IMG/VR virus record: IMGVR_UViG_3300044646_001815
Span: 1 to 28,660 of that record
Reading direction: 5' to 3' (one strand)
Length of the DNA: 28,660 bases
DNA from: a virus
Under the pieces are notes generated by a model. It was not told the origin of the DNA, did not search any database, and was given only the letters and a program-made list of their open reading frames with translations. Made by a program: the position numbers and the translations under genes. Numbering within the stretch: the stretch's first letter is position 1; every line of letters starts with the position of its first letter. Positions 3,377 to 9,195 of the stretch are shown in pieces.

Positions 3377-4765
3377 TCACTTTACCTGCACGCCCAGCGA
3401 CTCCTCCACCACATGCAAAGCATCCTCATCCGGTGGCTCGCACAGTGCCAGCGCCACACAGGCCAACAAACACCACCGCAGCCCCTTCCGCTTAACCTCA
3501 TCCCGGTTCAGCTCACCCATGATCGAGGCATACGCATCAGCCGGCAGACGATCCGCGATATCACGCCACACGATCTCCATCAGCGATTCCCACAGCGCAT
3601 TCTGCATCGCCGACTCAGGCCGCAGCATCAGCGCCCCGTGAATCTTCCGCCAGCGCACCTCATCGAATGCCACAGGCACCTCCGCAGACAATTCCAAATC
3701 GTCCACCTCAGGCACCTCCGCAGTTACCGTAGCATCCACACGCTCAGGCATCGCATCGCTCGGCTTAGCCAGCACTTTGCGTGTCTCACCTTTGCCACGC
3801 AGCACCCGCTCCGCGCTCGTCGAATCCGCATCCTTCACCGCGCTCAGCTTCACCAGGCACAGATGCTTCTCCACGCGTGCCGCAGCAGGGGCCAAATGCC
3901 ATGGCACACCCAAATCGTGAGCCAGTTTCCCCCACGTCATCGGCTCACCCGGATTCAGCATCAGTGCATCCTCGATGTATTCATCCCACATCATATAAGA
4001 TCCCACCGGCACCGCCTCACTCATCACGAATTGCTCACGATCCTCCCACGCCACCACATCGATGCGATCTGCCTCCCAACCCTGCCCAATCAGCTTACGC
4101 TTGATCTTCGGTGCCAGCACCACCCACTCCTTCCGCCAGCGCTCAGGCTTGAGAAACTGGTTCTCGATAAACACCCGCGCCTGCCCCTCCGTCATCGGCT
4201 CCTGCGTGATCGGATTGTTCAGCACCCCATCCATCGCCAGCTCCATTTGATCCTTCGAAAGCTGCCTCATTAGTCCCGCCGTCCCCAGCGCCAGCTTCCC
4301 CTTATACACCGCCTCCTGCACCCGATGCGGCAGCGTCCCCAGATCGAGGTAAAGCTGCACCGTCTCCTCACTCCGATGCATCACACCGATCCACGCCTCA
4401 CGCGTGATCCCCATCTGCATCGCCGTGCGTGAGGCCAGCGCCAATTCACGCGCATCAAAAGGATCGGAGCCATTCTGCAGCGTGATCAAATGCAGAAACG
4501 CCTCATTTTCATCAAAGCTCCACACCTTCGCCCACAGCGCCTCCACACCTAGCCGCTGCGCCGCCTCACGGCGTCGATGCCCCTGCATCAGCCGCAGCAC
4601 TCCCTGCGCATCACGGAACACATGCACATCCTCCCGGATGCCCTCCATGCGCAGTTGCTCGGTGAAAGCCTCCATATCACGGAGATCTCCGCCTCGTGGG
4701 TTCCGCGCCCAGGGCTCGATCAGCTTCAAAGAAATCAGTTCTCTCTTCGGTTCGTTTTTATTCAT
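3377..4765 (-). CDS. ParB-like N-terminal domain protein
   Basis: This 462-aa protein starts at ATG 4765; an upstream in-frame TTG at 4774 is less likely. Residues about 5-85 match the ParB/Spo0J N-terminal fold: a basic stretch ending in NPRGG, a predicted strand with VHVFRD, and the nucleotide-binding signature GHRRREAAQRLG (62-73, with GHRR at 62-65). In ParB proteins this region binds CTP; in other phage proteins it can be a nuclease or regulatory domain. A helical central region (about 95-180) is compatible with a DNA-binding middle domain. The C-terminal third is unassigned. There is no ParA gene nearby, so partition is doubtful. Lying in the replication operon beside the methyltransferase, it more likely acts in replication or regulation, possibly binding the repeats at 1-320. 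Confidence 0.75.
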   Translation of the reverse strand: MNKNEPKRELISLKLIEPWARNPRGGDLRDMEAFTEQLRMEGIREDVHVFRDAQGVLRLMQGHRRREAAQRLGVEALWAKVWSFDENEAFLHLITLQNGSDPFDARELALASRTAMQMGITREAWIGVMHRSEETVQLYLDLGTLPHRVQEAVYKGKLALGTAGLMRQLSKDQMELAMDGVLNNPITQEPMTEGQARVFIENQFLKPERWRKEWVVLAPKIKRKLIGQGWEADRIDVVAWEDREQFVMSEAVPVGSYMMWDEYIEDALMLNPGEPMTWGKLAHDLGVPWHLAPAAARVEKHLCLVKLSAVKDADSTSAERVLRGKGETRKVLAKPSDAMPERVDATVTAEVPEVDDLELSAEVPVAFDEVRWRKIHGALMLRPESAMQNALWESLMEIVWRDIADRLPADAYASIMGELNRDEVKRKGLRWCLLACVALALCEPPDEDALHVVEESLGVQVK

Positions 4766-4784
4766 AGGTTTCAAGTTTCACATT

Positions 4785-6002
4785 TTAGGTTTCAAGATTC
4801 AGTCCTGCAGCTCCGCGATGCGGCCCTGCGTTACTTGAATCGCTGTCTCTGTTTTCATGATATGGCTTCCTGGACCTGCACCAAGGCAACGCTGCCGAGA
4901 TTCTCGTCGAAAACGATGCCATCACTGGTGTCCGGACCTCTCTCGGCATGATGATTTGGTTAAAGGTTTGCCATGCGAGCCGCACCACTGCCGGAACCTG
5001 TCCATTCCCGAGGCACCGCAATCGGTCCACCCGAGCGGCCACCCCATCAGCCACTCGACCCACGTTGGGTTCAGCGCTCCACCAGCTATCGCATTCAACG
5101 GCAGCGTATTCCGCTCCATCTGCGACGGCCCCCGGTTGTTGCTCGCATCCTGCACCGTTGGCGTTGGCCAGAGCTTGTAATGGCTGTTGGGATTGCCCCT
5201 CACCGCTTGGATCAAATCGCCGCGTCCACCTCTCTCCCCGTCGCTGCTGCGCACCGTCGGCCACATCCCCTTCGCCGCCGCCTTCACTTGCATATTCAGG
5301 TCCGTCAAACTCACGCCCATGGAGTTCCCGCGTGCCACAGATCGCCGCTTCCGCTCCAGAAACGCCTCCGGCTCCCCATTCGCCATCTGCGCACAGGGCG
5401 TTGCCCACATCGCCACCTGCCCCAGCAAGCTCGCCCGCTTGGAGCCATCGCGTTGATTGTGGTGCGTGCGACCATTCGCATCCTGCGCCGTCGGCGTCTG
5501 CCACGTCTCTTCGCCATCCCATGATCCAGATTCGTTTCCTTCGGTGTGGAGCTCCGGCATCATCAGCTCCCAGCACTCCCCAGATCGCATCATACCCCAG
5601 CGCCACCAGGTCCCCGAGAACTCTTCCAAGCCCCCGAACAGTGAGCATTGGCGAGTTCTCCACGAGCACGTAGCGCGGTCCCACCTCACCGATGATCCGG
5701 GCCATCTCCACCCACATCCCGCTTCGCTCCCCGTCGATTCCGGCTCCTTTGCCAGCGCAGGAAATGTCTTGGCAGGGAAACCCGCCAGAAACCACGTCAA
5801 CACGGCCTCGCCATGCACCTCCGTCAAAGGTTCGCACGTCATCCCAGATGGGAAACGGCTCCAGGCAGCCGTCGTTTTGCCGTGCCACAAGCACGCTTGC
5901 GGCATAGGCATCCCACTCAACAGCGCACACGCAGCGCCATTTGAGGAGTTTGCCTCCAAGAATGCCACCACCAGCGCCCGCGAAAAGAGCCAGCTCATTC
6001 AC
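4785..6002 (-). CDS. DNA cytosine-5 methyltransferase (frame A)
   Basis: This 405-aa protein transfers a methyl group from S-adenosylmethionine to C5 of cytosine in DNA. Motif I is FAGAGGG (residues 7-13). The catalytic motif IV is PCQD, with the nucleophile Cys77. Motif VI is represented by EN (115-116, Glu115) and motif VIII by RRKR (154-157). The C-terminal motif X is LGNGQVP (331-337), preceded by the typical EPNVGRVADG. The region between about 163 and 300 is Gly/Ala rich and holds repeated VADADG-like segments where the target recognition region should be. The last 45 residues or so have no recognisable match. The start is GTG 6002, only 4 nt after the Shine-Dalgarno AGGAGG at 6007-6012. 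Likely roles are protection from host restriction or epigenetic control. No cognate restriction enzyme is seen. A second frame overlaps almost all of this gene. Confidence 0.85.
   Translation of the reverse strand: MNELALFAGAGGGILGGKLLKWRCVCAVEWDAYAASVLVARQNDGCLEPFPIWDDVRTFDGGAWRGRVDVVSGGFPCQDISCAGKGAGIDGERSGMWVEMARIIGEVGPRYVLVENSPMLTVRGLGRVLGDLVALGYDAIWGVLGADDAGAPHRRKRIWIMGWRRDVADADGAGCEWSHAPQSTRWLQAGELAGAGGDVGNALCADGEWGAGGVSGAEAAICGTRELHGREFDGPEYASEGGGEGDVADGAQQRRGERWTRRFDPSGEGQSQQPLQALANANGAGCEQQPGAVADGAEYAAVECDSWWSAEPNVGRVADGVAARVDRLRCLGNGQVPAVVRLAWQTFNQIIMPREVRTPVMASFSTRISAALPWCRSRKPYHENRDSDSSNAGPHRGAAGLNLET
4922..5998 (-). CDS. Overlapping 358-aa ORF inside the methyltransferase gene (frame B)
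   Basis: This open frame, shifted one base from the methyltransferase, runs for 358 codons within its gene. Its ATG (5998) overlaps the stop of the upstream gene as ATGA, the same junction used by many neighbouring genes, and lies 8 nt from the AGGAGG at 6007-6012. The product is Trp, Ser and Pro rich. It has four W-x-T-type repeats (WQTP 166, WATP 198, WPTV 246, WPTP 277) and ends with a Trp-rich block around LNPTWVEWLMGWPLGWTD (309-326) and a DRFRQW..SHGKP tail. From memory, not a search, both blocks recur in phage hypothetical proteins, which suggests selection on this frame. Function is unknown. It could instead be a chance open frame in GC-rich DNA or a product of methyltransferase decay. 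Confidence 0.5.
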   Translation of the reverse strand: MSWLFSRALVVAFLEANSSNGAACALLSGMPMPQACLWHGKTTAAWSRFPSGMTCEPLTEVHGEAVLTWFLAGFPAKTFPALAKEPESTGSEAGCGWRWPGSSVRWDRATCSWRTRQCSLFGGLEEFSGTWWRWGMMRSGECWELMMPELHTEGNESGSWDGEETWQTPTAQDANGRTHHNQRDGSKRASLLGQVAMWATPCAQMANGEPEAFLERKRRSVARGNSMGVSLTDLNMQVKAAAKGMWPTVRSSDGERGGRGDLIQAVRGNPNSHYKLWPTPTVQDASNNRGPSQMERNTLPLNAIAGGALNPTWVEWLMGWPLGWTDCGASGMDRFRQWCGSHGKPLTKSSCRERSGHQ

Positions 6003-6843
6003 GCCGCCTCCTTCCCATGCTCAGCGAGCCAGCGGCGGACCTGTGCTTTGTCACTGGCGACCATTTGCGGCCAGCCGGGCACGGCGCCCTCCCTTCCACC
6101 TTCACCGCGCTCGAAGGCCCCGCGGGCACTCCTGCCCGCTTTGGTGCATCCTTCTTCTTCCGATTCTGCTTCCCACGCATCGCCACGCTCAGCGCCTCCC
6201 GGCAGTGCGACCGCTTCATAAACCAAAACTCCCCCGTGCCCTTCCGCCCGCTCACCCGCTGCGCCCGATGCACCATCTCCAGCACGAGGCTCTGCATCGC
6301 CGCACTGATCGCACTGCGCTTATTCTGCGCCGTCAGTCCAATCGCCTCACCCATCGTCGAAAAACTCCGCGCAATCGGCGGCCTCACCGATTGATCTGGC
6401 ACAAACGCATACACCAGGCACAGCGCCCTTTTGCCCACCTCCCGCTCACTCCAGCCACGAGCCGTCAGCATCTCCACCAACAGCCGACCGCTCACACTCT
6501 CCCACTCAATCGCCTCGCAGCGGCTCATCGCCGCACGCACCCTCTGCCAATCGGCGCGGCCATGCCAGAGATCCTCCGCCAGCAAATCCGGCGCCAGATG
6601 CGCCACCACCACCGCCAAGCGATCGCGGATCTCCCGCACCGTCGTCACACCACTCGTGATGGCCATCACCAGCGTGATCAGGCACCGCGCCCGCTCCAAT
6701 CCATCCTGCCTCATTTCGCCGTCGGCAGTTTCTTCCGCCTCCATCAGCACCTCATCCGGTCCACGCACATGCAGCGCATCAAAGGCCATGTTAAAAGCCT
6801 CATGCTGCGCGATGTCGTGGTAGTCGTTTGTATAGGTATTCAT
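5995..6843 (-). CDS. Phage protein of unknown function, basic C-terminus
   Basis: This 282-aa protein is not recognised. The start at ATG 6843 is chosen because GAGGTGAT lies just upstream; an in-frame extension to 6936 would run into the preceding gene without support. The first 200 residues are helical and acidic to neutral. The C-terminal 80 residues change to a Lys/Arg/Pro-rich low-complexity tail ending GRRRRE. In the last 230 bp another frame (5999-6226) is also open and ends with an ordinary-looking helix (VASDKAQVRRWLAEHG) just before ATG 5998. The real C-terminus may therefore be in that frame, through a frameshift or sequencing error. The gene lies between small accessory genes and the methyltransferase in one operon. 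A DNA-associated role is only suggested by the basic tail. Confidence 0.6.
   Translation of the reverse strand: MNTYTNDYHDIAQHEAFNMAFDALHVRGPDEVLMEAEETADGEMRQDGLERARCLITLVMAITSGVTTVREIRDRLAVVVAHLAPDLLAEDLWHGRADWQRVRAAMSRCEAIEWESVSGRLLVEMLTARGWSEREVGKRALCLVYAFVPDQSVRPPIARSFSTMGEAIGLTAQNKRSAISAAMQSLVLEMVHRAQRVSGRKGTGEFWFMKRSHCREALSVAMRGKQNRKKKDAPKRAGVPAGPSSAVKVEGRAPCPAGRKWSPVTKHRSAAGSLSMGRRRRE
6007..6012 (-). promoter_or_regulatory. Shared Shine-Dalgarno for two overlapping starts
   Basis: AGGAGG on the minus strand lies 4 nt before the GTG at 6002 (methyltransferase frame) and 8 nt before the ATG at 5998 (overlapping frame). Both distances allow initiation, and the ATG spacing is the more usual one. 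One ribosome binding site could therefore feed two reading frames. Confidence 0.7.
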
Positions 6844-8403: not shown

Positions 8404-9195
8404 TCAGGGGTTAAAGGTTGAAACTTCCGTTTGAACAAAATGCCGACCATTCACCGTCAGCCGCGCTGGCATCGGATACCGGCCTCGTGAGATCCGCGCA
8501 TACAGCGCACCAGGACTGATACCGAGACCCGCCGCCTCACCCGTCAGCCACACCTTCAGCGGCACACACCCCGCTGGCACCGGCATCGGCGACCGCGACG
8601 CCTGCTTCATCTCCACAGGCACGCCCATCGCCAGTCGCAACTTCCGCAGCCCCTGATCCACCAGCTGCTGCACCCAGGTATGGCTGCATCCCATCTGCGC
8701 CGCCACGACACGCTGCAAACGGCCAGCCATCACGCATTGCGTGATCACATACTGCTCCGCCACCTTCAGACCACGCAGCGCCTCCATCACCCTCACGTGC
8801 CGATCATCCGCCTCCCACACATCCTGCTCCGGCAGCGGCAGAGATTCCGCCAGCGGCCTCTCTCCATCTTTTAAAGGAGCATCCAGCCACACAAACGACA
8901 CCGGCTTTCCCTCCGGAAAGCGGATCAAATGGCTCAGCCGAGCCACAAAGTTTCTCATCAAATTGTGCACCGCCTTGCCTCCAAAGGACAAAAACGACAC
9001 CCCGCGCTCGACATCGAAATGCGCCGCCGCCCATACAAGGCCCAGACGGCCCTCCTGCATGAGATCATCCTCATGCATTTTCAGGTGCGGCAGCTTCGAG
9101 ATCCACCGCTGCACCTGGCTGCGGAGAAAACGCTCATGCATCACCACCGACGTGGCCGCATCCAGTTGATCTTCTTTTTTGGTTGATAGACTCAT
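8404..9195 (-). CDS. Sigma-70 family RNA polymerase sigma factor with C-terminal HTH
   Basis: This 263-aa protein probably redirects host RNA polymerase to phage promoters. Region 2 is clear: EDDLMQEGRLGLVWAA followed by FDVERGVSFLSFGGKAV (residues 42-76), matching the core-binding and -10 recognition helices. Region 4 lies at about 138-187, with the HTH segment VVAAQMGCSHTWVQQLV and basic RKLR after it. Region 1 and most of region 3 are missing, as in small alternative sigma factors. An unusual C-terminal extension (about 205-263) with GEAAGLGISPGALYARISRG looks like an AlpA/excisionase-type winged HTH. The start at ATG 9195 follows a long GAAGAAGAAAAAGAAG tract. The gene heads the leftward operon, so it may be an early-to-late switch. 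An intrinsic terminator separates it from the regulator upstream. Confidence 0.8.
   Translation of the reverse strand: MSLSTKKEDQLDAATSVVMHERFLRSQVQRWISKLPHLKMHEDDLMQEGRLGLVWAAAHFDVERGVSFLSFGGKAVHNLMRNFVARLSHLIRFPEGKPVSFVWLDAPLKDGERPLAESLPLPEQDVWEADDRHVRVMEALRGLKVAEQYVITQCVMAGRLQRVVAAQMGCSHTWVQQLVDQGLRKLRLAMGVPVEMKQASRSPMPVPAGCVPLKVWLTGEAAGLGISPGALYARISRGRYPMPARLTVNGRHFVQTEVSTFNP

Follow-up and report, generated by a model that had tools for sequence, protein, structure and literature searches.

Introduction

In the C5-cytosine methyltransferase M.EcoHK31I, the β polypeptide is read from an alternative frame of the α gene, with a start inside α and a length of about 176 amino acids. As far as its published description goes, M.EcoHK31I is a two-polypeptide C5-methyltransferase (C5-MTase) for YGGCCR (PMC3404938), the large polypeptide of which carries motifs I–VIII, motif X and a predicted target-recognition domain (TRD), with the small one carrying only motif IX (PMC3404938 citing Lee, Kam and Shaw 1995). 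The same article describes M.AquI, for CYCGRG, as a further C5-MTase made of two polypeptides, with motifs I–VIII in one and motifs IX–X in the other (PMC3404938 citing Karreman and de Waard 1990). A nested two-frame arrangement in phages was not found described in our literature search.

Here we analyse the methyltransferase locus of a viral DNA stretch of 28,660 nucleotides, called the window below, in which both of two overlapping frames are coding and conserved, each frame has its share of the enzyme motifs, and selection moves from one frame to the other along the gene. We think it very likely that a single C5-cytosine methyltransferase is made here as two polypeptides, a catalytic A (α) and a B (β) carrying the TRD and motif IX.

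Layout of the Locus and Shared Start Signals

The locus lies on the minus strand, where frame A runs from 6002 to 4785 (405 aa, GTG start) and frame B is nested inside it in the +1 frame, LANANGAGCEQQPG and WPTPTVQDASNNRG being identical DNA read in the two frames. The features of the locus are as follows:

4785..6002, minus strand: frame A, probable α subunit of the C5-cytosine methyltransferase, with motifs I–VIII and X and without motif IX (PF00145, phrog_363, AF2 model)
4922..5998, minus strand: frame B, probable β subunit, 358 aa, ATG start, with TRD and motif IX (phrog_1008, stop depletion, purifying selection in the TRD and motif IX)
6007..6012, minus strand: AGGAGG ribosome-binding site common to both starts, 4 nt from the GTG of A and 8 nt from the ATG of B (sequence)
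5769..5777, minus strand: motif IV of A, catalytic PCQ, residues 76–78 (invariant in 44 homologues)
5532..5546, minus strand: motif VIII of A, HRRKR, residues 153–157 (H153, R155 and R157 invariant in 44 homologues)
5046..5498, minus strand: predicted disordered linker of A through the TRD, residues 169–319 (low pLDDT; A synonymous/nonsynonymous 119/1300 in homologue pairs)
4992..5012, minus strand: motif X of A, LGNGQVP, residues 331–337 (selection on A, synonymous/nonsynonymous 347/145)
5075..5521, minus strand: target-recognition region of B with W-x-TP repeats, residues 160–308 (B synonymous/nonsynonymous 1155/231)
5021..5074, minus strand: motif IX of B, LNPTWVEWLMGWPLGWTD, residues 309–326 (hhalign; suppressed synonymous variation in A; B synonymous/nonsynonymous 282/105)

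The TGA of the upstream gene overlaps the ATG of B as ATGA, and this ATG lies 4 nt downstream of the A start codon. The sequence details given by the first-pass annotation of this DNA all proved correct, namely the GTG at 6002, the PCQD, EN, RRKR and LGNGQVP motifs, the ATG at 5998 in its ATGA junction, the 358 codons, and the AGGAGG at 8 nt.

In most members of the family, A opens with ATG, GTG or TTG followed by AAT-GAG, which places an ATG for B 4 nt past the A start. At codon 2 of A, homologues use AAT in 146 genes and AAC in 2, the reverse of the asparagine codons elsewhere in the same genes (1086 AAC and 601 AAT, or 36% AAT), a bias with a nominal p of 2e-62 that is uncorrected for kinship among the genes. 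An exchange of AAT for AAC at this codon is synonymous in A and abolishes the ATG of B, so that this codon usage marks the B start codon as protected by selection. The start codon of B is ATG in 152 of 183 genes and GTG in 9, with ATG serving as the start of A in only 92, and in homologues with a recognisable Shine–Dalgarno sequence the spacing is most often 4–5 nt to the A start and 8–9 nt to the B start.

Around the locus, a gene for a ParB-like protein (3377–4774, minus strand; phrog_1033, E 2e-10) follows directly downstream of the methyltransferase, and a sigma-70 region 2 protein that matches a family of phage sigma factors for RNA polymerase (phrog_351, E 1e-15; PF04542) is encoded at 8404–9195, also on the minus strand. 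At 4785–4950 (minus strand), frame A is about 50 residues longer at the C-terminus than is usual among its relatives, as though the normal stop had been lost.

Frame A, the Probable Catalytic Polypeptide

Frame A matches PF00145 with an E value of 6e-32, the match being confined to residues 4–167 (profile positions 4–165 of 324), and it also matches phrog_363. Motifs I, IV (PCQ), VI (ENV/ENS), VIII (QRR-like) and X (GN) are all present in one chain, as in a C5-MTase; the TRD and motif IX, which a C5-MTase has between motifs VIII and X of the same chain, are missing from A, and a pattern search found motif IX in frame A of none of 313 homologous genes. The AF2 model of A is confident at residues 1–168 and in C-terminal helices at about 320–351, and this confident part matches M.HaeIII and M.HhaI, with pLDDT falling to about 30–46 across most of residues 169–319 and the small domain missing.

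Frame B, the Nested Reading Frame

The search of frame B against protein databases that the first-pass annotation had proposed returned a match to phrog_1008 (E 5e-29) and no match in Pfam or NCBIfam. The PHROG families matching B are phrog_1008, phrog_26627 and phrog_35493, the first of which is labelled “DNA methyltransferase”, yet B is without any catalytic motif; the members of phrog_1008 are probably the nested frame itself. Against PDB sequences the B profile gave only chance-level matches (best E 0.09), and tblastn of B against plasmids hit Leptospira and Acinetobacter records only.

What identifies B is the segment LNPTWVEWLMGWP, which is motif IX; monomeric relatives from phages have this motif in their catalytic frame. 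The motif IX stretch of B, LNPTWVEWLMGWPLGWTD, corresponds to motif IX LTPRECARLMGFP of monomeric control C5-MTases; in hhalign, it aligned at the same position with motif IX of monomeric phage methyltransferases (probability 96, E 3e-9), and a pattern search found it in frame B of 226 homologues. In an AF2 model of B alone, built from an alignment without phage-record sequences, the mean pLDDT was 54 and the motif IX end was the sole confident part, a poor result that is expected for half an enzyme but is no proof that B is one. Residues 1 to about 100 of B are weakly constrained apart from being free of stops, and the N-terminal half is without a known relative.

Frame B Is Kept Open

The number of stops expected in frame B was obtained from synonymous-codon shuffles that preserve the A protein and the A codon usage. 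In 88 non-redundant homologues with GC between 0.47 and 0.68, frame B contained 15 stops against 396 ± 13 in the shuffles and was free of stops in 81 of the 88, against 1.1 expected, with the third frame of the same genes showing no depletion (1164 stops, 1070 expected). A set of 206 non-redundant homologues, counted from A codon 61 to n-45, had 5 stops against about 669 expected, which by region came to 1 vs. 176 (codons 61–105), 2 vs. 303 (codons 106–165) and 2 vs. 190 (TRD). The members of the clade are related, so that these stop counts and the selection counts given below are non-independent events whose nominal significance is inflated. The window gene itself, with 61% GC, has 3.2 expected stops and one in the tested range, which is the end of B.

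As a control we took 27 reference C5-MTase genes from 150 proteobacterial genomes, of which 26 are ordinary and one (L360) is of the nested type. In the control genes, frame B had 412 stops with 423.5 expected, and L360 had none; since the controls show no depletion, an open +1 frame is not a general property of C5-MTase genes. Among named phages, the +1 frame is open over most or all of the methyltransferase in Acinetobacter ABMM1, Salmonella S9-5, Pseudomonas phPA-G, Klebsiella BUCT711 and Microcystis Mel-JY01, and likewise in Pseudomonas PS-1 and a Vibrio phage, the third frame of these genes being rich in stops. Three loci of the nested type (L061, L142 and L279) have one mid-gene stop each in B, at B codons 88, 114 and 142, which may reflect a later B start, a sequencing error or decay. 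On these comparative counts, frame B is a real coding gene.

Selection Switches Frame along the Gene

Position 1 of an A codon is the third position of a B codon, and substitutions were counted in about 70–90 independent pairs per region. For the TRD, where aligning codons by way of the A protein blurred the signal, the counts come from ungapped DNA matches of TRDs that are similar to each other. Over the catalytic regions, differences per site at A positions 1, 2 and 3 were 0.118, 0.049 and 0.250, with synonymous/nonsynonymous counts in A of 1047/262 and 997/196. The pattern is reversed in the TRD (0.455, 0.159 and 0.131), where the counts are 1155/231 in B and 119/1300 in A. It is likewise B that is conserved at motif IX (282/105 in B, 99/314 in A), and at motif X conservation is seen in A (347/145). 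Synonymous variation in A is suppressed most strongly over codons 301–330, where it drops to 0.32–0.44 of that expected. Pairs that include the window gene itself give the same picture; for example, the window and its relative L016 differ at A positions 1, 2 and 3 by 22, 18 and 60 sites in codons 1–161 and by 19, 6 and 13 sites in codons 276–346.

Purifying selection is thus seen on A over the catalytic region and at motif X, and on B in the TRD and motif IX. This switch means that the TRD and motif IX belong to B, and that A is nearly free to vary across the TRD. The first-pass annotation had asked for purifying selection, and not stops or neutral change, in frame B of homologues, and this is what is seen in the TRD and motif IX; the first 100 or so residues of B go only part of the way, being free of stops and otherwise weakly constrained.

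Relatives, Alternative Layouts and Annotation

All 334 surveyed loci match the catalytic domain of A, including 160 that were retrieved with B as the query, and B without A was not seen among them. They come from viral contigs, from bacterial genomes (Pseudomonadota, Verrucomicrobiota, Planctomycetota and others) and from one archaeal MAG contig. Three layouts occur, with the enzyme in a single frame, split after motif VIII, or nested as in the window. Single-frame enzymes are found in phages (L349, L351, L352, L356 and L357), where PCQ, (L)LPTP repeats and an EWMMGWP-type motif IX share one frame and a GNGV segment resembling motif X follows motif IX; in proteobacterial genomes, full-length PF00145 matches, that is monomers, predominate. 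The split layout is that of the mycobacteriophage “DNA methylase” gene pairs of Rebeuca (gp80/gp79) and Gruunaga (90/89), at L171:1908-2901 and L172:1914-2910, in which A ends after motif VIII and motifs IX and X lie in a +1 ORF. These pairs have the appearance of a C5-MTase split past motif VIII, and they may be joined by frameshifting or may act as two subunits.

Annotation of the nested genes varies, with A alone listed in some of the phage records, B alone in others and both in a few. In three phage records (L005:2501-3229, L175:1942-2640 and L007:2219-3148) B is annotated as a “hypothetical protein” and the catalytic A is missed, in three others (L002, L003 and L004) A alone is annotated, and in Paenibacillus phage Tadhana (L001) both are annotated as overlapping genes. 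From the loci surveyed, the nested arrangement appears to be common to hundreds of viral and bacterial genes, usually half annotated, and the nested type is by this evidence widespread in phages and prophages.

Discussion

Three other explanations of the open frame deserve consideration. One is that B is open merely by chance of the codon usage or amino-acid composition of A, which the GC-richness of the window gene (61%) might suggest, given that a high GC content lowers the frequency of stops; 3.2 are expected in this gene, and the one present lies at the end of B. Such chance openness is refuted by the synonymous shuffles (15 stops vs. 396, across GC 0.47 to 0.68), by the monomeric controls, in which ordinary C5-MTases show no depletion, and by codon-position patterns that are those of purifying selection on B, and we give it practically no weight. 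A homing insertion of the ShiLan type with an HNH nuclease was also rejected, given that B extends over the entire gene without any HNH match and that its motif IX is the methyltransferase’s own. Programmed frameshifting into a single chain, starting in A, shifting to B after motif VIII and returning to A before motif X, would agree with the order of the parts along the DNA (I–VIII, TRD, IX, X) and with the mycobacteriophages (L171, L172 and L338–L348) in which A stops after motif VIII and a +1 ORF has motifs IX and X, where a single shift would be enough. The window, however, would need two shifts in opposite directions; B would not have to be open over A codons 5–160, yet stops are avoided there (1 vs. 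176 and 2 vs. 303), and it would not need a separate start, yet its own ATG is protected. A double frameshift is less likely than two polypeptides because it leaves the open B over the catalytic region and the protected B ATG unexplained, and we regard it as improbable.

No more probable is an independent role for B, for instance as an overprinted inhibitor, regulator or anti-restriction factor overlapping a complete methyltransferase, as might be thought from the lack of Pfam and NCBIfam matches and of a known relative of its N-terminal half. Against this, A is incomplete, having no motif IX and a TRD stretch that is neutral and predicted to be disordered; the motif IX and TRD-like repeats present in B sit in the catalytic frame of monomeric phage methyltransferases; and B was never seen without A in the 334 loci. 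B is best taken as the portion of the enzyme that A is missing, namely its target-recognition region and motif IX. The first-pass annotation had suggested an overprinted gene, possibly a partner or inhibitor of the methyltransferase. Both frames are indeed coding, by stops and by selection, but B is not a new protein laid over a complete methyltransferase; the idea of a partner gains support, given that B carries the TRD and motif IX that A lacks, and nothing points to an inhibitor, a main reading that we rejected because A has neither motif IX nor a constrained TRD.

Two polypeptides of one enzyme, A and B, most likely arise and work in the following way. Ribosomes at the shared Shine–Dalgarno sequence would start either at the GTG of A or at the ATG of B, 4 nt downstream. 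A would fold as the AdoMet-binding catalytic domain and contribute the motif X helix, with its long disordered linker taking the place of the target-recognition domain, and B would contribute the target-recognition region and motif IX, that is, the small DNA-recognising domain. Together the two would form the active enzyme, which would methylate cytosine in the DNA of the phage and most likely shield it from host restriction. From the sequences we infer this dual initiation at one Shine–Dalgarno sequence, the formation of a heterodimer, the methylation activity and the protection from restriction. The arrangement probably originated from a frame shift in the middle of a monomeric enzyme that was rescued by a second start.

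We lean, by a narrow measure, towards regarding the interleaved two-frame enzyme as a major and ancient gene organisation and not as a curiosity of one restriction–modification system, with full-length α and β ORFs, one ribosome-binding site and a division into catalysis and specificity, in which the specificity region would be swappable because only B constrains it, and in whose light the TRD assignment of M.EcoHK31I may need revision. If this holds, a second, nested protein that annotation has dropped would be present in several hundred genes of phages and prophages, or more, and such methyltransferases would not be correctly cloned or assayed from one annotated ORF. The family would also offer an unusually clear comparative record of overlapping frames alternating under selection in one gene, useful for testing methods of overlapping-gene detection and in work on the survival of frameshifted enzymes, and its nested, fast-varying recognition region suggests how phages may alter their methylation specificity.

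Comparison with Known Systems

Monomeric C5-MTases (PF00145; M.HhaI and M.HaeIII) share with A motifs I–VIII and X and the catalytic fold, but in them one frame also holds the TRD and motif IX (LTPRECARLMGFP), and stops in the +1 frame are not avoided. The ShiLan domain with its HNH endonuclease is like the locus of the window in that an out-of-frame ORF overlaps within a phage DNA methylase gene, but there the ORF is part of a homing insertion and codes for an HNH nuclease (PMC11855218). M.AquI, by its published description, resembles the window in having the enzyme in two polypeptides divided past motif VIII, but its β has motifs IX and X, whereas motif X of the window lies in A and is selected there; it is mycobacteriophage relatives such as Rebeuca gp80/gp79 and Gruunaga (L171 and L172) that resemble the M.AquI layout, unlike the window.

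By analogy, the closest known enzyme is M.EcoHK31I. As in the window, its α is described as having motifs I–VIII and X and its β motif IX. Its β also lies in an alternative frame inside the α gene, again as in the window. The two differ in that the TRD of M.EcoHK31I is assigned, by prediction in the published description, to the large polypeptide, whereas that of the window is constrained in B and not in A; and in that its β of about 176 aa starts inside α, whereas B of the window has 358 aa and starts 4 nt after A from the same Shine–Dalgarno sequence. Unlike M.EcoHK31I, the nested full-length type represented by the window appears to be common in phages.
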